DNA from: Acetobacteraceae bacterium
GTDB lineage: Bacteria > Pseudomonadota > Alphaproteobacteria > Acetobacterales > Acetobacteraceae
Assembly: GCA_025352375.1 (NCBI GenBank)
Contig: JANXTL010000238.1
Span: forward strand, 1 to 34,177
Reading direction: 5' to 3'
Length of the DNA stretch: 34,177 bases
Shown here piece by piece: positions 8,579 through 34,041 of this stretch. The first letter of the stretch is position 1, and each line of letters begins with the position of its first letter. The position numbers were made by a program, and so were the translations under genes. The notes beneath the pieces are model-generated. The model searched no databases. It was not told the origin of the DNA and saw nothing but the letters and a program-made list of their open reading frames with translations.

Positions 8579-8791
8579 ATGACCAAAAGCCTTAACGACA
8601 GCGACATCCAGACGACCCGCCGCGCCGCCCTGCGTTCCTTCGCGGCGAGAGCCGGCCTGACCGCAGCCCTGATCGCCGGCGCCGTGATCGGTTCCACCGG
8701 GACCGCCCACGCCGGCAGCGACCGCCGCAACCAGACCGACAACGACACTGGCCGTGGCAGCGACTACGTGGGCCAGACCGACAACGACTAG
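8579..8791 (+). CDS. small exported protein of unknown function with a twin-arginine-like signal
   Basis: A 70-aa protein with AAGG about eight bases before the ATG. Residues 1-45 look like an export signal: twin Arg (TTRRAALRSFAARAG), a hydrophobic core (LTAALIAGAVIGSTG) and a possible cleavage at AHA-GS. The mature part is only about 25 residues, rich in Asp, Gly, Arg and Asn, with two similar pieces (NQTDNDTGRGSD, VGQTDND). The TAG stop is formed by the first bases of repeat copy B; without the repeat the stop would be TAA, followed nine bases later by the cupin gene start. No known function. Confidence 0.6.
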   Translation: MTKSLNDSDIQTTRRAALRSFAARAGLTAALIAGAVIGSTGTAHAGSDRRNQTDNDTGRGSDYVGQTDND

Positions 8792-8905
8792 AGCGTGATC
8801 GCCTGAGGTTGACTTCAACCTCGGGCGTGAATCAACTTCTCAAACAAAGGCTTAGACCATGATCGAACGCCGAGATCGCGTGCAACCTCAAACGATCATG
8901 GTCTA
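8789..8905 (+). mobile_element. MITE-like palindromic repeat, copy B (117 bp with both TA)
   Basis: It has the same two-module structure as copy A, with a few substitutions in module I (AATCAACTTCTC instead of AATCACCCTCTC). TA borders lie at 8789-8790 and 8904-8905. It is inserted exactly in the stop codon of the small exported gene: removal with one TA leaves TAA in frame, while its presence yields TAG. It now separates two codirectional genes that would otherwise be nine bases apart. Confidence 0.9.
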
Positions 8906-8915
8906 AGCCTACGCG

Positions 8916-10109
8916 ATGAACCGAGACGGCTTTTCGTTCGACCGGCTGATCGCACCGATCGGCCGGTCTTCGTTTTTGCGGGATCATTACGAAAAAGCAC
9001 CGCTGGTCGTGCATCGGGCGGACCCGGATTACTACGGCCGTGTGCTGCGGCTTGAGGATGTCTGGCAGTTTATCGAGACTCGGTGCCCGGGCGCGGACGA
9101 TCTCCGCGTGGTCAAATTCGGATCCGACCAGCAACCAACCGACCATATGGGCCCCAACCGCCGGGTGGACCCGGTTCGACTGGCGGGGTTGTTCAGTGAA
9201 GGCTGGACCATCGCGCTGAACAATATGCAGGATTACCTGCCAAGCCTTGGGCAACTTTGCGCCGCGGCCGAGGCGGAATTCTCGGCACCGTTCCAGACCA
9301 ATCTGTACCTCACGCCCCCGGACGCACAGGGTTTCAAGCCGCACTGGGACACGCATGACATCTTCGTCCTACAGATCCATGGGTCGAAGAACTGGACACT
9401 CTACGATACCCAGATCGAACTGCCGCTGGTCGGCCAGACCTTCGATGAGCACAAGCCGGAACCCGGACCGGTTAGCGCCGAATTTACGCTGCACGCCGGC
9501 GATTTGCTGTATTGTCCACGCGGCCTGATGCACGCCGCCCACGCTTCGGCCGACACGTCGTTGCACATCACGTTTGGCTTGATAGGCACGACCTGGGCGG
9601 AACTGCTGGTTGAGGCCATTTCCAAAACCGCTCTGACCGAACCGTCGCTGCGGCATAATTTGCCGTTCGGCTTTGCCCGATCCGAATACAACCGACAGGA
9701 GGCCGCGGACACGTTCGCCCGGATGGCAGCGACATTCGCCGAGAAGGCGGATTTTCCTGCGATCTTCGAGCATATGCGGGAGAAATTCGTCGGCACCCGC
9801 CGTATCCGGCGGCCGGGCTATATCGAGGAAATCGCTCGGCTGGATCAGGTGTCGTCAGCGAGCCGGGTCGGCGTGCGGCCCGATCTGATGTGGTTCCTGG
9901 AAGGTAATGAGGAAACGGTCAGCCTGAGTTGCGGCCCCAGCACCCTGACGATGCCCGGTTTTGTACGCGGCGCGATGGAGGTCGCGATGGCTTCGGCGAG
10001 CTTCGTGGTAAGCGAACTGCCGGGTCCGCTGGATGAGGACGGTAAGGTGACGCTGGTGCGGCGGATGATCCGGGAGGGGTTGCTGCGGACTATGGGGGGA
10101 ATTTATTAA
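8916..10109 (+). CDS. cupin_4/JmjC-type 2-oxoglutarate/Fe(II) oxygenase, ribosomal-oxygenase-like
   Basis: A 397-aa protein with the layout of bacterial ribosomal protein hydroxylases (YcfD/RoxA group). The double-stranded beta-helix core lies around residues 95-225. The iron ligands HxD are visible as HWD (His143, Asp145), and a distal His lies in CPRGLMH (His206), followed by SLHITFGL. The C-terminal half is a helical region plus a winged-helix-like end, as in this family, which hydroxylates ribosomal proteins such as L16. The target here is inferred only. Repeat copy B lies immediately upstream, so the ATG at 8916 has no clear Shine-Dalgarno sequence (ten bases separate it from the repeat). 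Confidence 0.82.
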   Translation: MNRDGFSFDRLIAPIGRSSFLRDHYEKAPLVVHRADPDYYGRVLRLEDVWQFIETRCPGADDLRVVKFGSDQQPTDHMGPNRRVDPVRLAGLFSEGWTIALNNMQDYLPSLGQLCAAAEAEFSAPFQTNLYLTPPDAQGFKPHWDTHDIFVLQIHGSKNWTLYDTQIELPLVGQTFDEHKPEPGPVSAEFTLHAGDLLYCPRGLMHAAHASADTSLHITFGLIGTTWAELLVEAISKTALTEPSLRHNLPFGFARSEYNRQEAADTFARMAATFAEKADFPAIFEHMREKFVGTRRIRRPGYIEEIARLDQVSSASRVGVRPDLMWFLEGNEETVSLSCGPSTLTMPGFVRGAMEVAMASASFVVSELPGPLDEDGKVTLVRRMIREGLLRTMGGIY

Positions 10110-10178
10110 CGCTGGCACCCAGCCCGATAGGCCATTGTTCCCTGCTGCGTTACCTGCCCGACTCCACGCCGCAGCACC

Positions 10179-11198
10179 CTACCCCTTATGGTGCCCCACC
10201 CGCACCAGCAGCTTCCCGAAATTCCGCCCACCGAGAATACCAGCCAAAGCTGCTGGCGCCTGATCCAGGCCCTCGTGGATATCTTCCCGGTACACCAACG
10301 AGCCATCCGCGATCCACGGCCCCGCCAGCTTGCGCCATTCCGGAAGCCGTTCGGGGCGGTCGGATACGATGAACCCCTGGATCATTACGGACTTTCCGAC
10401 CACGAACCCCAAATTCGGGCCGGGCGGGAATTCGGCTTCGTTATACTGCGAAACCATGCCGCACATCGCGACGCGCGCATGGCGATTGAGCTGGCCGAAC
10501 ACCGTCGCCTGCACGTGCCCGCCGACATTTTCGAAGTATCCGTCGATGCCATTCGGGCAGGCCGCGTGAAGTTCCCGCGCCAAATCCATCGACCGGTGAT
10601 CGACGCAATCGTCGAAACCCAGGCTGTCCTGGACCCACAGGCACTTTTCAGAACCGCCGGCGATACCCACAACCCGCGCCCCTGCCCGCCTGGCGAGTTG
10701 TCCCGCAACCGAACCGACGGCGCCGGACGCGGCCGAAACAACGATCGTCTGGCCTTTTTGCGGCTTGATGATTTCCGTCACACCGGCATAGGCGGTCGCG
10801 CCGGGCATGCCGAGCACGCCCAGATAGGTGGACGAATGCACGCCGGCGGGCACTTTCACCAGCCGGTCACCCGCCGTCACCGAATGCGTCTGCCAGCCAC
10901 GCGAGCCCACCACGATATCGCCGACAGCGAAGCGCGGATCGGCGGAGGCGACGACTTCGCCCACCGATTCGCCAGTCATGACTTCACCGATCTGAATGGC
11001 GACGGCGTAGGTCTGTTCTTCCCGCAGGCGGCCGCGCATGTAGGGATCGATCGACAGCCACAATGTGCGCGTGACCACCTCCCCCGTTTTGGGTTCGGGG
11101 ATCAGGTCCTGGACGATTTCGAAATCGTTGGGGCTGGGCTCGCCGGAAGGGCGGCGCTTCAGGACGACGGATTGGCGCAGTTGATTGGATCCGGACAT
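10179..11198 (-). CDS. NADP-dependent oxidoreductase, MDR superfamily (CurA/leukotriene B4 dehydrogenase-like)
   Basis: A 339-aa zinc-independent medium-chain reductase likely to reduce the double bond of enones using NADPH. Typical features are LWLSIDPYMRGRL near the N-terminus, MPGATAYAGVTEI, the nucleotide-binding VVSAASGAVGSVAGQLARRAGARVVGIAGG segment, LGFDDCVDHR, and ENVGGHVQATVFGQLN. No zinc-ligand Cys cluster is present. It begins 4 bp after the stop of the upstream zinc alcohol dehydrogenase, so the pair are probably cotranscribed. Substrate not determinable from sequence. Confidence 0.88.
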   Translation of the reverse strand: MSGSNQLRQSVVLKRRPSGEPSPNDFEIVQDLIPEPKTGEVVTRTLWLSIDPYMRGRLREEQTYAVAIQIGEVMTGESVGEVVASADPRFAVGDIVVGSRGWQTHSVTAGDRLVKVPAGVHSSTYLGVLGMPGATAYAGVTEIIKPQKGQTIVVSAASGAVGSVAGQLARRAGARVVGIAGGSEKCLWVQDSLGFDDCVDHRSMDLARELHAACPNGIDGYFENVGGHVQATVFGQLNRHARVAMCGMVSQYNEAEFPPGPNLGFVVGKSVMIQGFIVSDRPERLPEWRKLAGPWIADGSLVYREDIHEGLDQAPAALAGILGGRNFGKLLVRVGHHKG

Positions 11199-11202
11199 GG
11201 CG

Positions 11203-12303
11203 TTACGCAGCCTCCGCTTTCAGGACTAAACGACCGGTGACCTTGCCGTCGCGCAGGCGCATCAGCGCGCTGTCGGCGTCTCGCTGAGGCACGGTTTCCA
11301 CCGGCAAAGCTTGCAGTTCGCCCGATTGCGCCAAGGCCACGAGTTCCCGCAATTCCTTGGGGTTGCCGACGTAGCTGCCCTGCACCGTCAGCGCGCGAAT
11401 GGCCATGATGGGCAAAGGCAGCATCAGTTCCCCGCCGAACAGCCCGACCTGCACCAGCTTGCCGCCCTTGCGCAGCGCGGAGAAGGCGAAGCGGGCGGTG
11501 GCCGTGCCGTTCACCAGATCGACGACGGCCAGGACCGGTCCGCCGGCGGCCTCGATGATGCGCTGGGTGACGCCCTCCCCGTTGCCGTCCACGACCTTGG
11601 TCGCACCGGCTGCCAGAGCGGCGGCGCGCTTCTCGGCACTGATGTCCACCGAAACGATATTCTTGTGCTTCAGCGCCTTCAGCACGGCGATCGCGTTCAG
11701 GCCCAGGCCGCCGGCGCCAACCAGCACAATGGCCTCGGACGGGGTGTAGCCGGGCGTCGCCATGGCCTTCTTGATGCCGGAGAACACCGTGATCCCCGAA
11801 CAGGCATAGGTGGCTGCGACGGCGTGATCCAAGGTGCCGGGATCGACCAGATGACGCGGGTGCGGCGCTATCACGTGGGTGCCGTAGCCACCGTTCTGGT
11901 AAACGCCCAGGCTGCGGGCGGCGACGGTGCACATGTTATCGTCCTCGGCGAGGCAGGTGGCGCAGGTGCCGCAGCCGAGCCAGGGGTAGACGATCCGCAG
12001 ATCGCCGACCTTCACGCCCTTGGCGTCGGGGCCGAGCTTGACGCCCTTGGCGTCGGGGCCGAGCTTGACGACGCGGCCGACGATTTCGTGCCCCATGGCA
12101 AGGGGAAGAGTCACGCCGCGATCCGCCAGCGACATTTTTTGGCCGCCGCCGATGTCGTAGTACCCCTCCCAGATATGCAGGTCGGAGTGGCAGACGCCGC
12201 AATGAGTGACCTCGAGCAGCACCTCGGTGCCTTTCGGCTCCGGCGTGGGGAGTTCGATTTCCTTGAGGGGCTTCCCGTTTTCGACAACGGCCCAGGCGCG
12301 CAT
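11203..12303 (-). CDS. zinc-dependent alcohol dehydrogenase with an in-frame 9-residue duplication
   Basis: A 366-aa MDR enzyme. Catalytic zinc ligands are visible in CGVCHSD (Cys35) and GHE (His72, Glu73). The structural zinc site is C111-x2-C114-x2-C117-x7-C125. The nucleotide-binding loop VGAGGLGLNAI follows. Residues 80-97 contain a direct duplication of KLGPDAKGV, encoded by two perfect 27-bp copies; relatives carry the segment once before KVGD. The repeat sits in a surface loop between the catalytic and structural zinc sites and leaves the frame open. Likely cotranscribed with the CurA-like reductase downstream. Confidence 0.9.
   Translation of the reverse strand: MRAWAVVENGKPLKEIELPTPEPKGTEVLLEVTHCGVCHSDLHIWEGYYDIGGGQKMSLADRGVTLPLAMGHEIVGRVVKLGPDAKGVKLGPDAKGVKVGDLRIVYPWLGCGTCATCLAEDDNMCTVAARSLGVYQNGGYGTHVIAPHPRHLVDPGTLDHAVAATYACSGITVFSGIKKAMATPGYTPSEAIVLVGAGGLGLNAIAVLKALKHKNIVSVDISAEKRAAALAAGATKVVDGNGEGVTQRIIEAAGGPVLAVVDLVNGTATARFAFSALRKGGKLVQVGLFGGELMLPLPIMAIRALTVQGSYVGNPKELRELVALAQSGELQALPVETVPQRDADSALMRLRDGKVTGRLVLKAEAA
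12014..12067 (-). repeat. 27-bp perfect tandem duplication inside the alcohol dehydrogenase
   Basis: Copies occupy 12014-12040 and 12041-12067 and are identical. They add nine residues in frame. It looks like a recent slippage event because no substitution separates the copies. Confidence 0.92.
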
Positions 12304-12329
12304 GGTGGTTCTCCGATGGAATGACGTTG

Positions 12330-12351
12330 AGGGGGAATGGTTAGTCCCCCT
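12330..12351 (-). terminator. stem-loop between the hydroxyacid and alcohol dehydrogenase genes
   Basis: AGGGGGA (12330-12336) pairs perfectly with TCCCCCT (12345-12351) over an 8-base loop, 11 bp downstream of the minus-strand stop at 12363 and 27 bp upstream of the next start. No U-run follows on the minus strand, so it may be an attenuator or mRNA-stabilising hairpin and not a true terminator. Confidence 0.5.
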
Positions 12352-12362
12352 GGCGATTATTG

Positions 12363-13358
12363 TCAGCCCTTGAGCACTTCCGGATTGGTGACCCGGACCG
12401 GCTTGCCGTCCAGGAACCCCAACGCGTTCTCGATCATTTGCGGGTAGAATCCGTCCCAGGTTTCTTGCACGCCGTAGCCCATGTGCGGCATCAGCACGGT
12501 ATTCTTCGCGGTGCGTAGGGGATGCCCAACCGGCAGCGGCTCGCGATCGTAAACATCCAGCGCCGCCACGATCTTGCCCGCGTTTACCGCCGCCAGCATC
12601 GCGCCTTCGTCGATAATCGGCCCGCGGGAGGTGTTGATCAGAATGGCCCCCGGCTTCATCCGTGCGATATCCGCCGCACCGATCAGCCCGCGCGAACGAG
12701 GCGACAGCACCAAATGCACCGAGATCGCATCGGACTGGGACATCAGCTCATCCTTGGTCACCAGCGTCACGCCCATTTCGGCGCAGCGTTCGGCGGTCAG
12801 ATTCTGGCTCCAGGCGATGACGTTCATGCGCAGCGCCTTGGCATAGGTGGCCATGTAGCCGCCGAGCCGGCCCAGGCCCATTATGCCCATCGTCTTGCCG
12901 GCCAGCCCGATGCCAACGGGAACCCCCATCTGGAAGGTGCCCCCGCGCATATTGGCATCGCCCCGGGGAATGCCGCGCGCCGCCGCGATCAGCAGGCCAA
13001 GCGCCAGTTCGGCGGTAGCGGAGTCAGCGTAACCGCCGCCCGACGTCGCACAGACCGGAATGCCCCGCGCGGTGCAGGCCGGCGTATCCAGCGACGCGTT
13101 GCGCGCCCCGGTCATGCCCATCATGCGCAGTTTCGGCAGCCGGTTAATCAGCGACGCCGGCAATGGGGTGCGCTCCCGCATCGACAGCACGATGTCGAAA
13201 TCGGCGAGTTTCGCGACCGCGTCGTCTTCGTCGGCGAAGGCTTCCTGGAAGATGGTGACGTCGGCGCGGGCATCGAGCGCGGACCAGTCGGCGGAACCCC
13301 GCGCCACCCCCTGCCAATCGTCCAGCACCGCGATCTTGGATTTGTTGGTACCGCTCAT
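12363..13358 (-). CDS. D-2-hydroxyacid dehydrogenase family protein
   Basis: A 331-aa NAD(P)-dependent dehydrogenase of the phosphoglycerate/formate dehydrogenase group. The start is set at ATG 13358 (MSGTNKSKIAVLDDW); the frame extends to 13436, but that segment is basic and atypical. Visible elements are the nucleotide-binding MGIMGLGRLGGYMA, the catalytic Arg in INTSRGPIIDEGAML, the Glu in DVYDREPLP, and the His in LMPHMGYG. The substrate-binding part contains MTGARNASLD. It is the first minus-strand gene of the dehydrogenase trio and is divergent from the 3-hydroxyacyl-CoA-type gene, with about 107 bp between them. Substrate unknown. Confidence 0.88.
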   Translation of the reverse strand: MSGTNKSKIAVLDDWQGVARGSADWSALDARADVTIFQEAFADEDDAVAKLADFDIVLSMRERTPLPASLINRLPKLRMMGMTGARNASLDTPACTARGIPVCATSGGGYADSATAELALGLLIAAARGIPRGDANMRGGTFQMGVPVGIGLAGKTMGIMGLGRLGGYMATYAKALRMNVIAWSQNLTAERCAEMGVTLVTKDELMSQSDAISVHLVLSPRSRGLIGAADIARMKPGAILINTSRGPIIDEGAMLAAVNAGKIVAALDVYDREPLPVGHPLRTAKNTVLMPHMGYGVQETWDGFYPQMIENALGFLDGKPVRVTNPEVLKG

Positions 13359-13465
13359 TGTCCCGTTCCCATTATGCGCCTGGCGCGCAAGGTGGCGCTG
13401 GCGCCGCGCTGGCGCAAGCCGAGCTGTTGCGATCATATCCGCTCCGCAGTTTGAAGGAGTAGCAC

Positions 13466-14395
13466 ATGACCCAAGTCGCCGTCATCGGTGCCGGCCTCAT
13501 CGGCCGGGCCTGGTCCATTGTTTTTGCTCGGGCGGGGTTCGGTGTGGCGTTGTGGGACCCGTTCCCCCAGGCCGTGCAGCCCGCGTTGGACTTCATCGCC
13601 GAACGCCTGCCGGAGCTGAAGGAAAACGGGTTGCTCAAGGACGAACCGGCCGCAGTCATGGCCCGCATTCGTCCGGTACAGACCCTGGCCGATGCGTTGG
13701 GGGACGCCGTTTATGTGCAGGAAAACGGCCCGGAACGCGTCGCGATCAAAATCCCCCTGTTCGCCGAGATGGATCGCCTCGCACGACCGGACGCGGTGCT
13801 CGCGAGTTCGACCAGCGGCATCCCGGCCAGCGCCTTCACCGAGGGCCTGAAAGGCCGCGCACGGTGCCTGGTCGCGCATCCCGTGAACCCACCGTACCTG
13901 ATTCCGTTGGTGGAAATCTGCCCTGCACCGTGGACCGACGCGGCGACGGTGGCTCGCACGCGGGCGATTATGACCCAGGCCGGCCAGGTGCCCGCGACCG
14001 TCAAGAAAGAGATCGACGGGTTCGCCCTGAACCGCTTGCAAGGCGCGCTGTTGGCCGAGGCCTTCCGGCTGGTGGCGGATGACGTCATTTCGCCCGCCGA
14101 TCTGGATGCGCTGGTGAAGCACGGCCTCGGGCTGCGATGGAGCTTTATGGGCCCGCTTGAGACCATTGACCTGAACGCGCCCGGCGGGCTGGCGGATTAC
14201 TGCGACCGGTACGGGCCGCTATATGCCAAAATGCAGGCGCAGATGACGCCGCTGGAGTGGGACGCCGGGCTTGTCGGCAAATTGCAAGACGCCCGCCGGG
14301 CGGAGCTGCCGGCGAACATGCAGCCCGTGCGGCAGGCGTGGCGGGACCGGCGGCTCATGGCGCTGCTGGCGCACAAGGCGGGCCAGCCGGCGTAG
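13466..14395 (+). CDS. 3-hydroxyacyl-CoA dehydrogenase family protein (lambda-crystallin/L-gulonate dehydrogenase-like)
   Basis: A 309-aa NAD-dependent dehydrogenase with a strong ribosome site (GAAGGAG) before the ATG. The N-terminal Rossmann domain starts VAVIGAGLIGRAW. The catalytic His lies in VAHPVNPPYLIPLVEI, which in lambda-crystallin-type enzymes and carnitine dehydrogenases replaces the classic HFFNP of beta-oxidation enzymes. KKEIDGFALNRLQGAL begins the helical C-terminal domain. As a single-domain short protein it is more like L-gulonate 3-dehydrogenase/CRYL1 than FadB. The neighbouring dehydrogenases suggest a role in hydroxyacid or alcohol catabolism, which is an inference. Confidence 0.82.
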   Translation: MTQVAVIGAGLIGRAWSIVFARAGFGVALWDPFPQAVQPALDFIAERLPELKENGLLKDEPAAVMARIRPVQTLADALGDAVYVQENGPERVAIKIPLFAEMDRLARPDAVLASSTSGIPASAFTEGLKGRARCLVAHPVNPPYLIPLVEICPAPWTDAATVARTRAIMTQAGQVPATVKKEIDGFALNRLQGALLAEAFRLVADDVISPADLDALVKHGLGLRWSFMGPLETIDLNAPGGLADYCDRYGPLYAKMQAQMTPLEWDAGLVGKLQDARRAELPANMQPVRQAWRDRRLMALLAHKAGQPA

Positions 14396-14402
14396 ATCGG
14401 TT

Positions 14403-14429
14403 GGCGGGCTGCTTTCTCGGCCGCCCGCC
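14403..14429. terminator. stem-loop between convergent genes
   Basis: GGCGGGC (14403-14409) pairs with GCCCGCC (14423-14429) over a 13-base loop in the 57-bp gap between two convergent genes. It could serve both strands, although no U-run follows. Confidence 0.5.
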
Positions 14430-14452
14430 CTTCGCCCCGTTCGCTCGCCCGC

Positions 14453-15511
14453 TCAGACCTGATCGTAGTCCACCACGACGCGCTCGGTCACCGGCCGCGC
14501 CTGGCAGGTCAGCACGAAGCCTGCGGCGATTTCCCACGGTTCCAGCGAGTAATTCACCGCCATCTCCACCCTTCCCTCCAGCACTTTGGCGCGACAGGTG
14601 CAGCACATCCCGCCCTTGCAGGAGAACGGGAGGTTCCGCCCGGCGCGGATGGCGGCGTCGATGATCGCCTCGCCCGCTGCGACGGGAATGTCCACACGGG
14701 CGCCTTCATGCACGATGGTGGCGATGGTCGCCGGCTTGACACCGGCTGGGATCGCCACGGGTCTGGGGCGGCCGTCGGCGGAGGGGGTGAACCGTTCTAC
14801 ATGCACGTGGGGGATGCCGAGCGCGGCCAGCATGGTTGGGAGCCCCTCGATCATCGGCTGAGGGCCGCAGACGAAGGCATGATCGATCTTCGGCAGCATC
14901 GCCTGGAGGGCGCGCAGTTTGTCCGCGTCCAGATGGCCGTTCAGCACTGGGATATCCTGCTCCTCCCGCGACAGCACATGGAAAACCGACAGGCGCGCGA
15001 GGAAACGGTCCTTCAGGTCCTCGATTTCGGAACGGAACATGATGCTGTCGGTGGAGCGGTTGCCGCAGAACAGGAAGAAGCGGCTGGCGGGTTCTCCGGC
15101 GAGGAGCGCCTTCATCAGCGACAGCACCGGGGTGATCCCCGATCCCGCGACGAAAGCCGCGAAACTCCGCGCGGCGGCGGGGTCGGGCGCCAAGCCGAAG
15201 CGGCCGTCGGGGGTCATGACCTGGAGCGTGTCGCCGGCCTTCAGCGCGGCGTTGGCCCAGGTGGAGAACGCACCGCCCTCGACCCGCTTGATGCCAACGC
15301 TTAGCCCGGGTTCGTCGGGGGCGGAGCAGATGGAGTAGCTACGGCGGATGTCCTGCCCGTCGATCTCGGCGCGTAGGGTGAGGTACTGGCCGGGGGTGAA
15401 ACGGTACGCATCCCTCAGCACATCGGGGACGTCGAACGTAAGCACCACCGCGTCGGCGGTGTCGTGGCGCAGGGCGGCGATGCGCAGCGGGTGAAAGCGG
15501 GGTCTGGTCAT
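14453..15511 (-). CDS. paaE: PaaE-like ferredoxin reductase (phenylacetyl-CoA epoxidase reductase subunit)
   Basis: A 352-aa flavoprotein plus iron-sulfur reductase. The start ATG 15511 gives MTRPRFHPLRIAALR, which aligns with the usual PaaE start; a GTG at 15556 is possible. Order: FAD domain with RRSYSICSAP, NAD domain with VAGSGITPVLSLMKALL and FVCGPQPMIE, and a C-terminal plant-type [2Fe-2S] domain with CKGGMCCTCRAKVLEG and a distal Cys in FVLTCQARP. The segment MAVNYSLEPWEIAAGFVLTCQARP is characteristic of PaaE. No paaA, B, C or D neighbours are present, so its oxygenase partner lies elsewhere or it serves another oxygenase. Confidence 0.85.
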   Translation of the reverse strand: MTRPRFHPLRIAALRHDTADAVVLTFDVPDVLRDAYRFTPGQYLTLRAEIDGQDIRRSYSICSAPDEPGLSVGIKRVEGGAFSTWANAALKAGDTLQVMTPDGRFGLAPDPAAARSFAAFVAGSGITPVLSLMKALLAGEPASRFFLFCGNRSTDSIMFRSEIEDLKDRFLARLSVFHVLSREEQDIPVLNGHLDADKLRALQAMLPKIDHAFVCGPQPMIEGLPTMLAALGIPHVHVERFTPSADGRPRPVAIPAGVKPATIATIVHEGARVDIPVAAGEAIIDAAIRAGRNLPFSCKGGMCCTCRAKVLEGRVEMAVNYSLEPWEIAAGFVLTCQARPVTERVVVDYDQV

Positions 15512-15692
15512 ACCGAGGGGTGTTGCATCGTGCTTCGCCCCCTGCAAGGTCGGCACCCATTTCTGAACGCGCCATTAATTGGCGGCAATGTCTGAAACGG
15601 ATGCTTGGCTCGGGTGTCACATCCCCAGAACCGCACGATACTTCGTCACTGAGCCAAACCATTCTGGTTTAGTGTTATAAGGCGTTGCACCC

Positions 15693-15914
15693 ATGAAGAC
15701 CCTGTTGCTTGCTGCCGCTGTCCTGTCCTTCGGGATTGGCGTCGCACGCGCCGAAACCGCTCCGCCCTCGATGCACGATACAACGATGCAACACGATTCG
15801 ATGCATGATGGCATTCGCGACCGCATGAACGGCACGATGGCGCCGAAGCAAACCGCGCATGCCGTCACGAACGCCTGGCAGTCCGACGCTGGATTGGCCC
15901 GCGGCGGCGGCTAA
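15693..15914 (+). CDS. small secreted protein of unknown function
   Basis: A 73-aa protein with a clear Sec signal (MKTLLLAAAVLSFGIGVARA, likely cut after ARA). The mature part of about 53 residues is rich in Met, His and Asp (SMHDTTMQHDSMHDG), which could bind metal, though this is only composition. It ends in Gly residues and is followed 16 bp later by a strong stem-loop. No family recognised. Confidence 0.6.
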   Translation: MKTLLLAAAVLSFGIGVARAETAPPSMHDTTMQHDSMHDGIRDRMNGTMAPKQTAHAVTNAWQSDAGLARGGG

Positions 15915-15929
15915 ACCGAGCATAGATGG

Positions 15930-15965
15930 GCGTCCGGAACGTTGCAATATCGACGTTCCGGACGC
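15930..15965. terminator. strong 13-bp stem-loop between convergent genes
   Basis: GCGTCCGGAACGT (15930-15942) pairs perfectly with ACGTTCCGGACGC (15953-15965) over a 10-base loop. It lies between the small secreted gene and the GST gene, which converge, so it can act as a bidirectional terminator. A U-run is lacking. Confidence 0.65.
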
Positions 15966-15972
15966 AGGCAGG

Positions 15973-21763: not shown

Positions 21764-22108
21764 CAGGCATTCACGACCAGTGGGTAGTCGAAAACGTCGG
21801 CGGTCGGCACCAGCCGGCTGACTGCCTCGTCGCCGTCCCGCAGTTCGATCAGCTTCTTCGCGACATCGCGCGCGATTTCGATCGTTTCCTGGATGGTTCG
21901 GCCTTGGGCAATCAGCCCCTGGATGTCGTCCTAGACCATGATCGTTTGAGGTTGCACGCGATCTCGGCGTTCGATCATGGTCTAAGCCTTTGTTTGAGAG
22001 GGTGATTCACGCCCGAGGTTGAAGTCAACCTCAGGCGATCACGCTCTAGGTCGCGAGATAGGCTCCTTCCGGCAGCCTTTCGATATGCAGCGTGGCGATG
22101 CGTTCCAT
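21763..22108 (-). pseudogene. hicB: HicB-like antitoxin gene split by repeat copy C
   Basis: The 5' part starts at ATG 22108 and encodes ATLHIERLPEGAYLAT, ending at a TAG formed at the repeat border. Past the repeat, the same frame continues DDIQGLIAQGRTIQETIEIA, then RDVAKKLIELRDGDEA and a final FDYPLVVNA, stopping at 21763. This is the HicB-type antitoxin pattern (strand, GRT-x-x-E-T helix, FDYPLVV end). Removing the repeat plus one TA leaves the halves in frame but with a TAG codon between Thr and Asp, where relatives usually carry Ser, which suggests a nonsense mutation (TCG to TAG) came first. With the truncated hicA, the whole locus is decayed. Confidence 0.8.
21932..22048 (-). mobile_element. 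MITE-like palindromic repeat, copy C, inverted, inside hicB
   Basis: It has the same 117-bp two-module structure as copies A and B but lies on the minus strand, with TA borders at 21932-21933 and 22047-22048. Relative to hicB it is oriented module I first, so its leading bases form the TAG that ends the antitoxin fragment. Confidence 0.9.
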
Positions 22109-26472: not shown

Positions 26473-26532
26473 GTCGTTCGAGTCGCATCCCCAAGTCGAT
26501 GGCGGAAGTCCAAAAGGGGTGAGGACGAACGC

Positions 26533-27096
26533 GTGGCACTCAATCGTAAACGACGCATTTTCACGCAGACCGGGACGCCCTCGCGCCGCCGATCGCGCGG
26601 CGTGGCGCTAACGCTTCTGGCTGGCACGCTGATCGTGTCCGGCGGAGCGTGGTTAGGCCTGCAACCGAGTCAGGCGCCGGCGTCCACGTCTCCGCCGGGC
26701 CATTTGTCGGCGGAAGCCAACCAGACCCGCGTCGTCGACGGCAATACATTGATATTGGGCGGCAGGACGGTGCAACTCGCGGGCGTGCGTGCGGCACAGC
26801 GCGGGGCGGTTTGCGAGGCCTCCGGCAGCGGGCGCTTCGATTGCGGCGCGGCGGCGGCCAATGCTTTGTCCGCATTCGTCCGCGATGGCGCGATCGACTG
26901 CGCGCTGAACGGTTCGGGTCAAGGCGGGCGGCCGCTCGCGGTGTGTTCCACCAACGGGCGTGAGATCAACATGGCGATGATCGCATCCGGCTGGGCGCGG
27001 GCGGAGGCAGGGGTGCCGCTGCTAGGCGAAGCGGAGCGTCGGGCACAGGCGGAGCGGCGTGGTTTATGGGCTGGCTCCTGGATCGCGGCGGACTGA
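26533..27096 (+). CDS. thermonuclease (SNase)-like protein with degenerate active site
   Basis: A 187-aa protein starting at GTG 26533 with a GGTGAGGA site about ten bases upstream. A basic N-terminus and one hydrophobic segment (about residues 23-40, VALTLLAGTLIVSGGAWLGL) suggest a signal anchor. The rest is SNase-like: RVVDGNTLILGGRTVQLAGV, a Cys-containing middle (EASGSGRFDCGAAAANALSAF), GRPLAVCSTNGREINMAMIASGWARA, and ERRGLWAG. Active nucleases have DGDTL and IDAPE; here these read DGNTL and VRAAQ, so calcium and catalytic residues appear altered and it may be non-catalytic. Confidence 0.72.
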   Translation: MALNRKRRIFTQTGTPSRRRSRGVALTLLAGTLIVSGGAWLGLQPSQAPASTSPPGHLSAEANQTRVVDGNTLILGGRTVQLAGVRAAQRGAVCEASGSGRFDCGAAAANALSAFVRDGAIDCALNGSGQGGRPLAVCSTNGREINMAMIASGWARAEAGVPLLGEAERRAQAERRGLWAGSWIAAD

Positions 27097-27219
27097 GCGG
27101 CGCATTCTGGTAACGTCGATGCGAAATCGTCGGCCCGCACGCAATAATATTACGTACAAACTCCTTTTCACGTAACGGCGCCCGGCGCCCGGAATTCGGC
27201 ATTGCCGCCCAAACTCGCA

Positions 27220-27240
27220 ATTAACCACATTCTGGTTAAT
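27220..27240. promoter_or_regulatory. palindrome upstream of pdhA, possible operator
   Basis: ATTAACCA (27220-27227) and TGGTTAAT (27233-27240) are perfect arms around five bases, about 120 bp before the pdhA start, in a 266-bp gene-free region. Its AT-rich symmetric form suits a dimeric regulator. A PdhR-like or GntR-type protein is a guess. Confidence 0.4.
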
Positions 27241-27322
27241 CTTGATTTTTGCGTTGCAGCATCATGGTTTGTGCCAAGTTTCCTTGCCCGCACAGTGACC
27301 GCGTGGCACCTTTCTGCCATAG

Positions 27323-27340
27323 TTCGGGTCTGAACCCGAA
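27323..27340 (+). promoter_or_regulatory. hairpin in the presumed pdhA leader
   Basis: TTCGGGT (27323-27329) and ACCCGAA (27334-27340) form a perfect 7-bp stem with a CTGA tetraloop, 22 bp before the pdhA start and just ahead of its ribosome site (AAGGGA). It could stabilise the transcript or affect translation. Confidence 0.4.
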
Positions 27341-27362
27341 TACGCACGTAAGGGAAACGGCG

Positions 27363-28373
27363 ATGGCACAGGCAGCGGAGACCCGGAAACGCGGGAAAGC
27401 TAGGGAACCGTCGGTCAACCAGCCCGATTTGATGGGTGCTTACCGCACCATGCTGCTGATCCGCCGGTTCGAGGAAAAGGCTGGCCAATTGTATGGCATG
27501 GGCCTGATCGGCGGCTTCTGCCACCTGTACATTGGGCAGGAAGCGGTCGTGACCGGCATGCAGATGGCGGCCGGCGAGGGCGATCAGGTCATTACCTCCT
27601 ACCGCGATCACGGTCACATGCTGGCCGCCGGCATGGAAGCCCGCGGCGTGATGGCGGAGCTGACCGGCCGGTCCGGCGGGTATTCCCGCGGCAAGGGCGG
27701 CTCCATGCACATGTTCAGCAAGGAAAAGAACTTCTTTGGTGGCCACGGGATCGTGGGTGCTCAGGTGTCGCTGGGGAATGGGCTGGCGTTCAGCAACATG
27801 TACCGCGGCAACGACCGGGTCAGCTTCACCTATTTCGGTGAAGGCGCGTCCAATCAGGGGCAGGTTTACGAGAGCTTCAACCTCGCGGCGTTGCTGAAAT
27901 TGCCGACGGTCTTCATCATCGAGAACAACCGCTATGGCATGGGCACCTCGGTGGAACGCTCTTCGGGGTCGCACGACCTGTCGAAGAACGGTGCACCCTG
28001 GGGCATCCCCGGCCTGAAGGTAAACGGCATGGACGTGCTCGCGGTGCGGGAAGCCGCCGAAACCGCGGTGGCGCACTGCCGAGCGGGAAAGGGGCCGTAT
28101 TTGCTGGAGGTGGAGACGTACCGGTATCGCGGGCATTCGATGTCCGATCCGGCGCGGTATCGTACCCGCGAGGAAGTGCAGGCCATGCGGTCCCAGCACG
28201 ATTGCATCGAAAGTGCTCGGCATCGGCTGGAAGCGCTGGGTGTTGAGGAAACTGCGTTCAAGGCGATCGACGACGAGGTGAAGGGCATCGTGCAGGACGC
28301 CGCCGACTTTGCGCAGACAAGCCCAGAGCCGGACGAAGCCGAACTCTGGACCGATGTTTTGGTAGAGGACTGA
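27363..28373 (+). CDS. pdhA: pyruvate dehydrogenase E1 component subunit alpha
   Basis: A 336-aa thiamin diphosphate-dependent subunit that decarboxylates pyruvate together with PdhB. ATG 27363 is chosen (AAGGGA eight bases upstream). Key regions: AYRTMLLIRRFEEKAGQLYG, HLYIGQEAVVTGM, SYRDHGHMLAAG, the ThDP motif GEGASNQG (starting at residue 159) ending in IENNRYGMGTS (Asn188/189), and the loop YRYRGHSMSDPARYRTREE. It starts the operon pdhA-pdhB-pdhC and is separated from pdhB by 3 bp. Confidence 0.96.
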   Translation: MAQAAETRKRGKAREPSVNQPDLMGAYRTMLLIRRFEEKAGQLYGMGLIGGFCHLYIGQEAVVTGMQMAAGEGDQVITSYRDHGHMLAAGMEARGVMAELTGRSGGYSRGKGGSMHMFSKEKNFFGGHGIVGAQVSLGNGLAFSNMYRGNDRVSFTYFGEGASNQGQVYESFNLAALLKLPTVFIIENNRYGMGTSVERSSGSHDLSKNGAPWGIPGLKVNGMDVLAVREAAETAVAHCRAGKGPYLLEVETYRYRGHSMSDPARYRTREEVQAMRSQHDCIESARHRLEALGVEETAFKAIDDEVKGIVQDAADFAQTSPEPDEAELWTDVLVED

Positions 28374-28376
28374 ACC

Positions 28377-29741
28377 ATGGCGACACAGATTTTGATGCCG
28401 GCGCTGTCGCCGACGATGACCGAAGGCAAGCTCGCCAAATGGCTGAAAGCCGTTGGCGACGACGTGAAAGCGGGCGATGTCATTGCCGAGATCGAGACCG
28501 ACAAGGCGACCATGGAAGTGGAAGCGGTCGATGAGGGCAAAATCTCGCAGATTCTGGTTCCCGAGGGGACCGAGGGCGTGGCGGTCAACACGCCCATCGC
28601 GGTGCTGTCGATGAACGGGGAGGCTTTTTCCCCGGCCCCGGTCGCGACGCCCGCGCCCGTCGCGGCAGCGGTGTTAGCGGCCCTCCCTGCCCCAGTCTTG
28701 GCCCCAGTCGTGGCCCCAGTCGTGGCCCCAGTCTTGGCCGCGGTTGAAGACAAAGATTGGGGCCCGACCAAGCCCACGACCGTGCGTGAGGCTCTGCGCG
28801 ACGCCATGGCGCTGGAAATGCGCCGCGATGGCGACGTTTTTTTGCTTGGTGAGGAAGTTGCCCAGTACCAGGGCGCCTATAAGATCAGCCAGGGGCTGCT
28901 GGACGAGTTCGGCGCCAAACGGGTGATCGACACCCCGATCACCGAACACGGTTTTGCCGGTATGGCCGTCGGCGCAGCGCTGAACGGGCTGAAACCCATC
29001 GTCGAGTTCATGACGTTCAACTTCGCCATGCAGGCGATGGATCATATTATCAATAGTGCGGCGAAGACGCTTTACATGTCCGGTGGGCAGATGGGGTGCC
29101 CCATCGTGTTCCGTGGGCCGAATGGCGCCGCGTCGCGGGTGGGGGCGCAGCACTCGCAGTGCTACGCCAGCTGGTATGCGCATGTGCCGGGGTTGAAGGT
29201 GGTCTCGCCGTGGTCGTCGGCGGACGCCAAGGGGCTGCTGCGCGCGGCGATCCGCGATCCGAACCCGGTCATCTTTCTCGAGAACGAAATGCTCTATGGG
29301 CAGACCTTCGACTGCCCGGTGGACGACGATTTCATTCTGCCCATCGGCAAAGCGAAGGTGGAACGGGCCGGGACCCATGTGACCATCGTCGCGTTCTCGG
29401 TCATGGTCGGCGTCGCACTGGAAGCGGCGAAGGTGCTGTCCGAGCAGGGGATCGAGGCGGAAGTGATCAACCTGCGCAGTTTGCGTCCGCTGGATACCGC
29501 CACCATCGTCGAAAGCGTCAAGAAGACCAACCGCGTGGTGATGGTCGAAGAAGGCTGGCCCTTCGCCGGCATCGGCGCCGAAGTCGCCATGCAGGTGATC
29601 GAGCACGCCTTCGACTGGCTGGATGCCCCGCCGGTGCGTGTGCACGGGCTGGACGTGCCCCTGCCCTACGCTGCCAATCTGGAAAAGCTCGCATTGCCGC
29701 AGCCCGGCTGGGTCGTGGATGCCGTGCAGAAAATCGTCTGA
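28377..29741 (+). CDS. pdhB: pyruvate dehydrogenase E1 component subunit beta with N-terminal lipoyl domain
   Basis: A 454-aa protein. Residues 1-83 are a lipoyl domain with the modified Lys43 in ETDKATME. Residues 84-122 are a flexible Ala/Pro/Val linker encoded by 12-bp repeats. The rest is the E1-beta catalytic part: [46 protein letters not shown], then [17 protein letters not shown] and [17 protein letters not shown] lipoylated E1-beta is known from alphaproteobacterial PDH operons. It lies between pdhA and pdhC (17 bp to the next start). Confidence 0.95.
28689..28736 (+). repeat. 12-bp tandem repeat, four copies, in the PdhB linker
   Basis: Four consecutive 12-bp units (GCCCCAGTCTTG or GCCCCAGTCGTG) encode Ala-Pro-Val-(Leu/Val) repeats. 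The units differ at only one base, so linker length may vary between strains. Confidence 0.9.
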
Positions 29742-29758
29742 GTCCGGGGAACACAACC

Positions 29759-31036
29759 ATGGCCACCAACATTCTGATGCCGGCGCTGAGCCCCACGATG
29801 ACCGAGGGCACGCTGGCCCGCTGGCTCAAGAAAGAGGGCGATACGATTAAGGCTGGCGACGTGATCGCCGAGATCGAGACCGACAAGGCGACCATGGAAG
29901 TGGAAGCCGTCGATGAGGGCGTGCTGGGTCGCATTCTCGTGGTGGATGGCACCGAGGGCGTGAAAGTGAACGCGCCCATCGCGGTGATGGTCGATGCGGG
30001 GGAGGCTGTTCCCAGCGCCGCCGCCCCAGCCGCGCCGAAGCCGGTGGCGGTGCCGGTCGCCGCCCCGGTCGCCGCCGCCCCTGCCCCGGTTGCCGCGGCA
30101 GCGGTGCCGGTTTCTCGGCCGGCAGGGGAGCGCGTGGTCGCATCGCCGTTGGCGCGTCGTATGGCGGTGCAGGCGGGTGTGGATTTGGCGGCGCTGAGCG
30201 GCACCGGCCCCGGTGGGCGCATCGTGCGGGCGGATATCGAGGCGGCGGTGAAGGGTGCCGGCGCCGTTGCCCCGGCGCCTGTTGTCCCGGCGCCTGTTGT
30301 CGCGGCGCCGAAAGCCCCGGCCGCGCCGATCGCGGCACCGCATCGCCTCGTGCCGCACAGCTCAATTCGGAAAGTCATCGCGCGCCGCCTGACCGAGGCG
30401 AAGTCGTCCATCCCGCATTTCTACGTCTCGATGGATGTGGAAATCGACGAGCTGATCGCGTTGGGCGACAAGCTGAATTCCAAGTCTCCAGCGCGGGATA
30501 AGCCAGATGCTTACTTCATCACCATCAACGATCTGGTCATCAAGGCGACCGCCGCGGCGTTGCGCAAAGTGCCGGCGGTGAACGCATCGTGGACCGACGA
30601 CGGTACGGTTTTCTACGACGACGTCGACATCAGCGTCGCCGTTTCGATCCCGGATGGTCTGATCACGCCGATTGTGCGCAAGGCCGACCAGAAAGGCCTG
30701 CTGACCATCAGCCGCGAAATGAAGGACCTCGCCGGGCGCGCTCGGGCCGGTAAACTGAAGCCGGAGGAATTCCAGGGCGGTGGATTCTCGATTTCGAACA
30801 TGGGCATGTTCGGGGTGTCATCGTTCAGCGCCATCATCAATCCGCCGCAAGCCGGTATCTTGGCCGTCGGTGCAGGGCAGAAGCGCGCGGTGGTGAAGGA
30901 TGGCGAACTGGCGATTGCGACCGTGATGACCGTGACGCTGAGCGTCGATCACCGCGTCATCGACGGCGCCTTGGCCGCGACCTGGCTGAAAGCGTTCAAG
31001 GGCATCGTCGAGGATCCCCTGAGCTTGATGCTGTGA
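29759..31036 (+). CDS. pdhC: pyruvate dehydrogenase E2 component, dihydrolipoamide acetyltransferase
   Basis: A 425-aa core enzyme that transfers the acetyl group to CoA. Order: lipoyl domain (1-83, Lys43), Ala/Pro linker, peripheral subunit-binding domain ([18 protein letters not shown], then [12 protein letters not shown]), a second linker with PAPVV repeats, and the catalytic domain starting at [17 protein letters not shown] and ending with the active-site [10 protein letters not shown] (His398). The lipoyl region shares a 41-bp identical stretch with pdhB. Its stop overlaps the GTG start of the GNAT gene by 4 nt. Confidence 0.96.
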
Positions 31037-31530
31037 CATTCACCGTGCGCGACGCCACGCCCGCCGACGTCCCGGACGTGTTTCGGCTGACGCGCGGGCT
31101 GGCGGAGTACGAACGCGAACTGGGTCAGTTCACCGCGACGGAGGCCGACTTCCACCGGATACTGTTCGGCCACGGCCCGCGCGCTTTCGCGATGCTGGCA
31201 ATCGTTCCGGGTGTGCCGCCGGTGGGGCTGGCATTGTTCAACCAGACAATCAGCACCTTCCAGGGCAAGACCGGCATTTTCCTGGAGGATCTGTTCGTGG
31301 AACCGGAACACCGCGGCAAAGGCATCGGCCTGGCATTGATGCGCCGCCTCGCCGAACAGGCAGCGACGGAGGGCCATCACGTCATCGAGTGGCGCGTGCT
31401 GAACTGGAACCAACCGGCAATCGATTTCTACGAGCAGCTGGGCGCCCACCAGATGCAAAAATGGCACGTACGGCAACTCCATGGCGCGGCCCTGACCGCC
31501 CTGGCGAACGGAGACGCTCAACATGGCTGA
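31033..31530 (+). CDS. GNAT family N-acetyltransferase (diamine/thialysine acetyltransferase-like)
   Basis: A 165-aa acetyltransferase starting at GTG 31033 inside the pdhC stop (GTGA overlap). The acetyl-CoA loop is [38 protein letters not shown] and [20 protein letters not shown] are typical of spermidine/spermine or thialysine acetyltransferase-like proteins. It overlaps lpd by 8 nt, so it is fully embedded in the PDH operon; a link with acetyl-CoA supply is possible, but substrate and reason are unknown. Confidence 0.85.
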
Positions 31531-32923
31531 CCAATCCTTCGACCTGATCGTCCTCGGCGGCGGCCCTGGCGGCTATGTCGCCGCCATTCGTGCGGCGCAA
31601 TTGGGTATGAAAACCGCCCTGGTGGAGCGCGAGCACCTCGGCGGCATCTGCCTCAACTGGGGCTGCATACCGACGAAGGCGCTGCTGCGCACGTCGGAGA
31701 TCAATCATCTGCTGCACCATCTGCCGGAGTTCGGTTTTGCTCCCGTTACGCCGCAGTTCGATCTGGATAAGGTGGTGAAACGGTCGCGCGGTATCGCGAA
31801 ACAATTGTCGCAGGGTGTGGCGCATCTGTTGCGTAAAAATAAGGTTTCCGTCATTGACGGCGCTGGCGCCCTGGCCGGCAAAGGCACACTTGCGGTAACA
31901 AAAGACGGTAAGCCCGTCGCGACTTTGAAAGCCCCGCACATCATCCTGGCAACGGGCGCGCGTGCTCGGTCGTTGCCGGAGATAGAGGCCGACGGTCGTT
32001 TGATTTGGTCCTACAAGGAAGCCATGGTCCCCACCATGATGCCAAAATCGCTGCTGGTGATCGGCTCCGGCGCTATCGGCATCGAATTCGCCAGCTTCTA
32101 TCTGAACATGGGCGCCGCCGTGACGGTGGTGGAGGTCATGGACCGCGTTCTGCCGGTGGAAGACGCCGAAATCTCTGGATTGGCGCACAAAGCGTTCGAA
32201 AAGCAAGGTATGAAAATCCTGACCAAGGCGTCGGTGACATCGGTAAAAAAGAATGCCGACAGCGTGACGGTCAGCGTCGAGGCCGGCGGTGCGACCCAGC
32301 AAATAACCGTCGACCGCGTTATCTCCGCGGTCGGCATCGTCGGCAACACCGAGGGCCTGGGGCTCGAAGGCACCGGCGTCAAAGTCGACCGCACCCATGT
32401 GGTCATCGACGAATACTGCCGCACCGGAGAACCCGGCGTTTACGCCATTGGGGATTTGGCCGGCCCGCCCTGGCTGGCACACAAGGCCAGCCATGAAGGC
32501 GTCATGTGCGTCGAGAAAATCGCCGGCGTCAAAGGCGTCCACCCAATGGACCCGCTGAACATCCCGGGGTGCACGTATTGCCGGCCGCAGGTGGCCTCGG
32601 TCGGCCTGACAGAAGTGCGGGCCAAGGAAGGCGGCCGGGAAATCCGCGTCGGGCGTTTTCCGTTCATTGGCAACGGCAAAGCCATCGCCATGGGCGAACC
32701 TGAGGGCCTGGTGAAAACCATCTTCGACGCCAAGACGGGAGAATTGCTCGGCGCCCACATGATCGGCGCCGAGGTGACGGAGATGATCCAGGGCTACGTC
32801 ATCGCCCGCACGCTGGAGACGACCGAGGCCGAGCTGATGAACACCGTATTCCCGCACCCGACGATCAGCGAAAGCATGCATGAGTCGGTCCTTGACGCCT
32901 ACAAGCGGGTTATCCACTTCTAG
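31523..32923 (+). CDS. lpd: dihydrolipoamide dehydrogenase (E3)
   Basis: A 466-aa flavoenzyme that reoxidises dihydrolipoamide with NAD. FAD-binding start DLIVLGGGPGGYVAAIRAAQ; redox disulfide in GGICLNWGCIPTKALL (Cys43, Cys48); NAD loop LLVIGSGAIGIEFASFY; second FAD motif PGVYAIGDLAG; C-terminal active-site FPHPTISESMHES. The TAG stop is made with the first bases of repeat copy D; without the repeat it would also be TAG, and lipA would begin three bases later. The E3 of the PDH complex by context. Confidence 0.96.
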   Translation: MADQSFDLIVLGGGPGGYVAAIRAAQLGMKTALVEREHLGGICLNWGCIPTKALLRTSEINHLLHHLPEFGFAPVTPQFDLDKVVKRSRGIAKQLSQGVAHLLRKNKVSVIDGAGALAGKGTLAVTKDGKPVATLKAPHIILATGARARSLPEIEADGRLIWSYKEAMVPTMMPKSLLVIGSGAIGIEFASFYLNMGAAVTVVEVMDRVLPVEDAEISGLAHKAFEKQGMKILTKASVTSVKKNADSVTVSVEAGGATQQITVDRVISAVGIVGNTEGLGLEGTGVKVDRTHVVIDEYCRTGEPGVYAIGDLAGPPWLAHKASHEGVMCVEKIAGVKGVHPMDPLNIPGCTYCRPQVASVGLTEVRAKEGGREIRVGRFPFIGNGKAIAMGEPEGLVKTIFDAKTGELLGAHMIGAEVTEMIQGYVIARTLETTEAELMNTVFPHPTISESMHESVLDAYKRVIHF

Positions 32924-33101
32924 AGCGTGATCGCCTGAGGTTGACTTCAACCTCGGGCGTGAATCACCCTCTCAAACAAAGGCTTAGAGCGTGATCGCCT
33001 GAGGGTGACTTCAACCTCGGGCGTGAATCACCCTCTCAAACAAAGGCTTAGACCATGATCCAACGCCGAGATCGCGTGCGACCTCAAACGATCATGGTCT
33101 A
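32921..33101 (+). mobile_element. MITE-like repeat, copy D, with two tandem copies of module I (181 bp)
   Basis: Module I occurs at 32921-32984 and again at 32985-33048 (exact 64-bp period, one or two substitutions), then module II at 33049-33101 with two substitutions. TA borders lie at 32921-32922 and 33100-33101. Each module begins with TAGA, so the unit boundary is itself a TA. It is inserted in the lpd stop codon and separates lpd from lipA. Confidence 0.92.
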
Positions 33102-33105
33102 GGCC

Positions 33106-34041
33106 ATGACCACGCGCACCGAAATCGACCACCGCCACCCTGAAAAGGCCCACCGCCCGGACAACCCGATCCAGCGCAAACCCGCCTGGATCCGGGTCAA
33201 GGCGCCCAACCACCCGGTTTACAAGGAAACCCGCGACCTGATGCGAGCCAACGGGCTGGTGACGGTGTGCGAGGAAGCGGCCTGCCCCAACATCGGCGAA
33301 TGCTGGTCGCAACGCCACGCCACCATGATGATCATGGGCGACACCTGCACGCGGGCTTGTTCCTTCTGTAACGTGCGCACGGGGATGCCTCTGGCGCTGG
33401 ATGTTTCTGAGCCGGCGCGCGTTGCGGATGCGGTTTTTAAGTTGGGCCTGCGGCATGTGGTGATCACGTCGGTGGACCGCGACGATCTGCCCGACGGTGG
33501 CGCGGAGCACTTCGCGGCGGTGATACGCGCTATTCGGGCGGCGGCGCCAGGCACGACGATTGAGGTCCTGACACCCGATTTCCTTCGCAAGCCTGGCAGT
33601 GGGGATATTGTCGCGGATGCCCGTCCGGATGTATTCAACCATAATTTGGAGACTGTGCCTAGGCTTTATCCGTCCATTCGACCGGGGGCGCGGTATTATC
33701 AGTCGTTGCGTTTGCTCGACGGCGTGAAGCAACGCGCGCCGGGGGTGTTTACAAAATCCGGACTGATGGTCGGCTTGGGGGAGACGCGAGCCGAGATTAT
33801 GCAAGTGATGGACGACCTGCGGATCGCCGACGTCGATTTCCTGACCATCGGGCAATATCTGCAACCGACCGTGAAACACGCCGCCATCGCCGCGTTCGTC
33901 ACGCCCGAGGAATTCGAGGATTACGCTGCCCTGGCGCGCGCCAAAGGTTTTTTGCTCGTGTCGGCGACCCCGCTGACCCGCAGTTCCTACCACGCGGACA
34001 CGGACTTTGCCGCTTTGGCAGCCGCGCGGAATCGTGCTTAG
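33106..34041 (+). CDS. lipA: lipoyl synthase
   Basis: A 311-aa radical SAM enzyme that inserts sulfur into octanoyl groups on lipoyl domains such as those of PdhB and PdhC upstream. The auxiliary cluster ligands are [12 protein letters not shown] (Cys55, Cys60, Cys66); the radical SAM motif is CTRACSFC (Cys81, Cys85, Cys88). The C-terminal RSSYHA supplies the fourth Ser ligand of the auxiliary cluster. Complete. Repeat copy D ends just before its ATG (no clear Shine-Dalgarno), and its TAG stop is formed by copy E. Confidence 0.96.

Follow-up and report, generated by a model that had tools for sequence, protein, structure and literature searches.

Some integrative elements that insert into a tRNA or protein gene reconstitute its 3' end, for which they bring along a copy of that end, and their integrase acts at one site. 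The repeat described here occurs in five copies (A to E) in a stretch of 34,177 nucleotides from an Acetobacteraceae bacterium (GenBank assembly GCA_025352375.1, contig JANXTL010000238.1, positions 1 to 34,177; the whole stretch is hereafter "the window"); its insertion at a gene end likewise restores the gene, but with two bases and a generic target, and in many genes. The insertion sequence IS630 is said, in the title of the 1991 paper by Tenzen and Ohtsubo, to prefer the TA within 5'-CTAG-3'. In the cited sections of a later source, IS630 from Shigella sonnei and ISY100 are grouped as IS630/Tc1-mariner elements, with DDE transposases that duplicate TA (PMC2170065). Our repeat is like these elements, as characterized there, in its TA duplication and in the DDE transposase family to which we assign it, and differs from them in its wider target, YTAR (Y, pyrimidine; R, purine), in being a 117-bp non-coding derivative, and in its concentration at stop codons. 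Two repeats of Streptococcus pneumoniae come close in their genomic distribution: RUP, a short miniature inverted-repeat transposable element (MITE) thought to be moved by IS630-Spn1, is over-represented between convergent genes, and BOX encodes the stop codon of a gene in 36 cases, with no strong evidence of truncation (PMC3049150). The relevant sections of that source link neither of them to a YTAR target or to the rebuilding of a pre-existing stop, unlike the repeat considered here. MITEPsy1 of Pseudomonas syringae, a 100-bp MITE of the IS5 type, is given in the cited part of its description the target CTAG or YTAA (PMC3189936) and a duplication of 4 bp, whereas our repeat duplicates only TA, as shown by a left flank of YTAG and a right flank of CTAR also at sites that read TTAA or CTAA when empty. 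Each ingredient is in print: TA duplication by IS630, a CTAG preference (by title only), a MITE targeting CTAG or YTAA, repeats located between convergent genes and others providing stops. We found no description of a both-strand stop target combined with stop-restoring ends in the literature searched (titles and beginnings of abstracts).

We propose, with a probability of about 0.8, that the repeat is a non-autonomous IS630-type element, i.e. a MITE, moved by an IS630-family transposase, and that its distribution reflects targeting of YTAR together with purifying selection. The element sits in YTAR and duplicates only the TA, and, both ends continuing with GA, each strand entering it reads TAG. 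The tetramer is self-reverse-complementary, with TA at codon positions 1-2 giving TAA or TAG on either strand; because the target is YTAR, a hit at these positions never falls in a sense codon, and convergent pairs with a common YTAR keep both stops. Insertion therefore puts a TAG in the place of an existing TAA or TAG in either orientation, and does so for both genes of such a convergent pair, while in the other two phases the gene is truncated. Truncating hits and many promoter hits would then be removed by purifying selection, so that among YTAR sites those at stops, where an insertion does least harm, would stay occupied most often. Surroundings rich in guanine and cytosine (GC) may also be favoured, either by the transposase or through selection on AT-rich regulatory DNA.

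Structure and abundance of the repeat

Every copy in the window starts with TAGA, and all four with a visible right end finish with TCTA. The usual form of 117 bp comprises an A end (TAGAGCGTGATCG...), a 64-bp unit and a palindrome of about 53 bp (TAGACCATGATCG...CGATCATGGTCTA) that forms the B end; the unit may be repeated, as in copy D (181 bp), which has it twice. The end motif, TAGAGCNTGATCG with at most one mismatch, occurs 14 times in the window against 0.06 expected. Over the whole genome of the window (G000) it has 337 matches on one strand and 346 on the other, 683 in all and several per copy, compared with 3 and 5 for the reversed motif in the same genome. For closer analysis we took the first 100 of the 683 places in contig order together with the 40 best BLAST copies and left out those near contig starts, which gave 80 stretches of 2-7 kb that make up, with the window, 81 stretches (GC content 63%). 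They hold 88 complete copies, corresponding to 208 end-motif matches, and scaling by this ratio we estimate about 290 copies in the genome. The 117-bp form accounts for 78 of the 88; the repeat is short, without coding capacity and high in copy number, as is expected of an IS630-family MITE. Both flanks are available for 87 copies (L155, without a right flank, was dropped); incomplete copies, including window copy E and those at L093, L126 and L130, are not among the 87. Rfam at the gathering threshold has no match anywhere in the window.

The window's contig stops inside the repeat (copy E, 34039-34177), and among the first 100 motif places (contigs C1-C101) 16 contigs carry the end motif no more than 350 bases from where they begin; much of the fragmentation of this assembly is probably due to the repeat. 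In two stretches (L084:157-388 and L121:2001-2232) complete elements are paired, the second beginning 115 bases after the first, which is the spacing expected if one TA is common to both; the junction reads TCTA in L121 and TCTG in L084. An end of a filled site may be able to act as a fresh target.

Target site

In 86 of the 87 copies the first TA is preceded by Y and the last is followed by R; the target tetramers are TTAG (31), CTAA (23), CTAG (20), TTAA (12) and CTAT (1). Among the empty TA sites of the same stretches only 440 of 5,224 are YTAR. Copies away from stops have YTAR in 40 of 41 cases, so the preference belongs to insertion itself and does not simply follow from the sequence of stop codons. 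The same target prevails in congeners, with 32 of 34 copies in G003, 9 of 9 in G012, 5 of 5 in G027 and 3 of 5 in G016. The 12 flanking bases beyond YTAR contain no longer motif, only a mild GC bias. Filled sites in G000 are GC-richer in their flanks, in the stop and intergenic classes alike, while in G003 the excess is not present for the ten bases next to stops. Bases outside the TA differ between left and right flanks, and empty sites show one TA where filled sites show two, so only TA is duplicated, a trait of IS630-family MITEs. The preliminary description of the window had taken TA as the target, which holds for the duplication, though the element accepts not any TA but YTAR. An IS5-type MITE was considered and rejected, given that its 3-4-bp duplication is at odds with the unequal flanks and with empty sites that have TA only.

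Natural empty sites

Relatives provide natural empty alleles. At the lpd gene the three relatives viewed (L001, L002, L004) all have CTTCTAG; the corresponding window sequence is CTTC followed by the element, after which TAG appears a second time. Fourteen joined sites were searched in the genus, of which 10 were aligned to 25 relative loci, and at 6 of the 10 at least one relative has a clean empty allele (8 of the 16 loci there): TTAA in G009 at L131, TTAG in G009 and TTAA in G016 at L113, TTAA in G009 at L111, TTAG in G009 at L118, CTAA in G016 at L124, and TTAG in both G016 and G009 at L112. Five of these six sites are double stops of convergent genes. The relatives' frames that lead into the empty sites stay open for at least 114 codons, and at double stops this holds from either side. 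L111 is the exception: its left gene's frame in the phase of the site is open for only 25 codons in the relative (L288), so that only the stop of the right gene is sure. Because these natural empty sites already carry the stop, it predates the insertion. The earlier assertion that a duplicated TA with an inner G yields TAG whatever the orientation is supported.

The other eight loci at the six sites are a different element (L295) and seven gapped, partial or unalignable cases (L260, L302, L294, L303, L304, L301, L300). No empty allele was counted at the remaining four sites (nine loci): relatives of L138 have other spacers (TGA in L261; in L263, CTAA and a gap of one base), L159 corresponds to GTAG in L298, and L132 and L142 show other inserts or gaps. 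The element at L295 (G016:C44, near 356-480) is of the same kind and lies on the double stop occupied in G000 by the L111 copy, which would make the two a putative parallel insertion at one site.

Distribution of copies relative to genes

Genes were called with a home-made codon model trained on the examined stretches. By these calls, 37 of the 87 copies lie on a single stop and 9 on the double stop of a convergent gene pair; 30 are intergenic, 4 are within genes and 7 at stretch edges. The comparison proposed in the preliminary description, of the share at stops with that among TA sites, comes out clearly: 46 of 87 copies (53%) are on called stops against 97 of 5,224 empty TA sites (1.9%), and, among stop and intergenic sites only, 46 of 76 (61%) against 97 of 936 (10.4%). 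The excess persists when YTAR alone is considered. The 440 empty YTAR sites divide into 30 at single stops, 2 at double stops, 131 intergenic, 245 in genes and 32 at edges, so that stops make up 7.3% of them. Filled and empty sites number 46 and 32 at stops against 30 and 131 in intergenic YTAR (odds ratio 6.3, p = 1e-9), where the intergenic class omits sites lacking a called neighbour to one side (7 filled, 32 empty) and the raw stop class retains stretch-edge stops (8 filled, 1 empty), removal of which leaves 38 and 31 against 30 and 131. Compared with YTAR sites 1-60 bases past a stop (12 filled, 29 empty) the odds ratio is 3.5 (p = 0.0035). With tandem neighbours, stops are filled in 21 cases and empty in 21, and intergenic sites in 17 and 75 (p = 3e-4). 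Combining the gene-orientation classes, with edges omitted on both sides as in all stratified tests, gives an odds ratio of 3.55 (p = 2e-4).

The presumption that either selection or target preference accounts for the pattern can be sharpened, in that the data point to both. Target preference is indicated because copies away from stops are also at YTAR. Purifying selection is suggested by the scarcity of copies in genes (4 of 87, compared with 245 of the 440 empty YTAR sites) and by the order of filling of the other non-stop sites, convergent (10 filled, 14 empty) above tandem (17 and 75) above divergent (3 and 42).

Of the 18 proteins whose genes end at the nine double stops, 16 have a Pfam match with E <=1e-5, and for 15 the match also exceeds the curated cut-off; those on the minus strand at L111 and L113 have no Pfam match. 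In five of the 18 the match extends to 10 residues or fewer from the end: TauD (5-272 of 279), BacA (7-268 of 278), Aminotran_3 (13-434 of 439), NAD_binding_11 (to 280 of 289) and Abhydrolase_6 (to 289 of 298). These five show no sign of truncation; in the others the domain stops short of that range, and the comparison says nothing on truncation.

Other genomes of the genus

In the congener G003 the best 40 of 66 candidate copies were scored, copies near contig starts being mostly omitted, and these are 97-99% identical to those of the window. Eighteen of 34 are on stops, three of them double, and stops (18 filled, 10 empty) exceed intergenic sites (12 and 41; p = 5e-4). More diverged copies in G012, G027 and G016 (at the motif threshold used, 21 complete copies in 29 stretches) follow suit, with 10 of 19 on stops, and 10 filled and 19 empty stops against 8 and 53 intergenic sites (p = 0.025). 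Stratified by orientation, the odds ratio is 3.55 (p = 1.6e-5) for G000 and G003 together and 3.76 (p = 1.7e-7) for all five genomes.

When all sites of G000 and G003 are compared, related flanks occur in four regions (L087/L209, L109/L226, L128/L202 and L129/L223), and no copies were found at the same aligned base among the compared sites; the insertions therefore look independent. In each of the four regions the copies of the two genomes are near the same gene at different bases, as if some gene neighbourhoods had been hit repeatedly.

Mobilising transposase

The genome G027 contains an autonomous IS630 element (L170) at the target TTAA. Its transposase, assigned to IS630 by NCBIfam, occupies two overlapping reading frames and is bounded by TAGAGCGTGATCGTTTTAAG... 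and TAGAGCGTGATTGTCTGAAGTTGACTCC. The right end of the element, TAGAGCGTGATTGTCTGAAGTTGACTCC, agrees with the A end of the repeat at 24 of 28 bases, and the two have terminal inverted repeats in common. An IS630 fragment with the end TAGAGCATGATTG nearby is found in G003 (L316), and ends of the TAGAGC type, more or less diverged, also adjoin relatives in G010, G007, G012 and G003. Convincing inverted-repeat pairs with TAG at the tip were seen at the IS630 loci L165, L170, L171, L173, L174, L179 and L181/L182; at L166 a pair matching at 17 of 18 positions has a tip other than TAG. An IS5 partner (PF13340) was also considered and rejected: G000 has two such transposases, for which no matching ends were found.

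Alternative explanations

Several observations weigh against the reading of the repeat as an IS630-type MITE shaped by YTAR targeting and purifying selection. G000 itself has five IS630 matches, for none of which could matching ends be found; the closest of them (55% identity, C269) lies 73 bases from a contig end. Copies off YTAR occur in relatives (2 of 34 in G003, 2 of 5 in G016). Within orientation classes, the difference for convergent genes in G000 alone (stops 17 filled and 10 empty, intergenic YTAR 10 and 14) is not significant (p = 0.17), and G003 alone gives an odds ratio of 3.26 with p = 0.083; G027 alone has no excess (stops 2 and 8, intergenic 3 and 12). With GC and tetramer as covariates the odds ratio of stops in G000 falls to 2.17 (p = 0.04) for convergent and tandem sites, and to 2.5 (p = 0.012) for all intergenic sites; the latter model applied to the five genomes gives 2.28 (p = 0.003). 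About two fifths of the log excess at stops goes with sequence context, and with GC taken into account stops are favoured over other intergenic YTAR sites by a factor of only about two. The gene caller also scores window copies A and C as intergenic, and selection is deduced from the distribution rather than seen acting.

It is conceivable, though rather unlikely, that the YTAR target and ends reading TA and then G form a safe harbour at stop codons, i.e. that target specificity has been shaped so that hits at codon positions 1-2 spare all proteins, including those at double stops, letting hundreds of copies spread in a gene-dense genome, even inside operons. The suggestion in the preliminary description that this amounts to a strategy is not supported in the sense of an adaptation, given the merely twofold excess just mentioned and the fact that most of the IS630 ends found in the genus read TAG; the stop-restoring end may be ordinary for the IS630 family.

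That the transposase is drawn to gene 3' ends beyond YTAR, through an extended motif, a step in GC content, the structure of the DNA or the state of transcription or termination, appears unlikely. It would account for the odds ratio of about 2 that survives the covariates, for the double stops (9 filled, 2 empty) and for copies inside tight operons, where the next gene is 0-16 bp away at 10 of 21 filled tandem stops and 4 of 21 empty ones. Yet the flanks have no longer motif apart from the mild GC bias, copies away from stops use the same target, and the ranking of the other site classes by harm is what selection predicts.

We consider it improbable that gene-end copies are kept by positive selection for a function of the folded repeat as a terminator or a stabiliser of mRNA 3' ends. 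The predicted fold is strong (-53.8 kcal/mol, z -7.8), but palindromic ends fold by construction, and the consensus has no T-run. Of 33 oriented single-stop cases in G000, 26 have the A end next to the stop (26 A, 7 B; p = 0.0013), a bias that is tied to, and confounded with, the CTAA target there and is weak in G003 (9 A, 6 B); G012, G027 and G016 together have 5 and 2. Termination would, moreover, be expected to harm copies inside operons. Finally, it is hardly credible that gene ends only seem favoured through the rarity of TA in the genes of a GC-rich genome, where every TAA or TAG stop is itself a TA site, since 4,083 of the 5,224 empty TA sites and 245 of the 440 empty YTAR sites are in genes, and the excess at stops persists against YTAR, within orientation classes and after GC.

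Copies in the window and neighbouring genes

Gene ends hold three of the five window copies (B, D and E), while C and, judged by eye, A are of the ordinary harmful kind. The preliminary description had assigned four copies to in-frame stops, which is right for B, D and E, whose leading TAG terminates an open frame with coding signal, but not for C, where the TAG is premature. Copy B (8789-8905, plus strand, 117 bp) closes with its first TAG a small open reading frame (8579-8791, plus strand) that has a coding signal and no match in Pfam or NCBIfam. Copy D (32921-33101, plus strand, 181 bp) lies on the TAG stop of lpd (31523-32923, plus strand; dihydrolipoamide dehydrogenase-like), which it rebuilds, 4 bp ahead of the called start of lipA. 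Excision in silico yields CTAA for B and CTAG for D, in agreement with the stops TAA and TAG proposed for the element-free sites, and CTAG is the empty form of D in the three relatives described above. Copy E (plus strand) is cut by the contig end and supplies with its first TAG the stop of lipA (33106-34041, plus strand; lipoyl synthase-like), the nearest named relatives of which are metagenome-assembled genomes of Acetobacteraceae; in relatives lipA ends with TAATG (L002) or TGA (L001), the right flank of copy E being beyond the contig. Copies D and E lie in one gene cluster.

Copy C (21932-22048, minus strand, 117 bp) breaks a short open reading frame, labelled hicB in the preliminary description; neither of its pieces matches Pfam or NCBIfam. 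Its TAG is not a natural gene end, because the frame carries on past the element and the sole relative found (L308 in G007) has the sense codon TCA there in an open frame of 90 codons. Without the element the frame would still read TAG against TCA in G007; either a nonsense mutation preceded the insertion or the insertion was imprecise. Copy A (5063-5179, plus strand, 117 bp, flanked by C and A) is at no stop and lies 26 bp past a gene end called by the codon model. By eye, the minus-strand frames on its two sides enter it in the same phase, and it was probably inserted in a single minus-strand gene, interrupted and already frame-shifted, for which Pfam supports no name. Upstream of the insertion (5178-5450, minus strand) this gene also seems, by eye, to be frame-shifted.

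Implications

The proposed mechanism amounts to a simple and testable rule, by which short mobile repeats would multiply in dense genomes without damage to genes through a both-strand stop target and restoring ends. It predicts that a gene can be colonised when its TAA or TAG stop follows a Y, and a convergent pair when the two genes have a YTAR in common, and it implies that genes annotated as ending in a repeat may be complete. The rule would also be relevant to other elements that target TA and have a purine immediately inside their ends.

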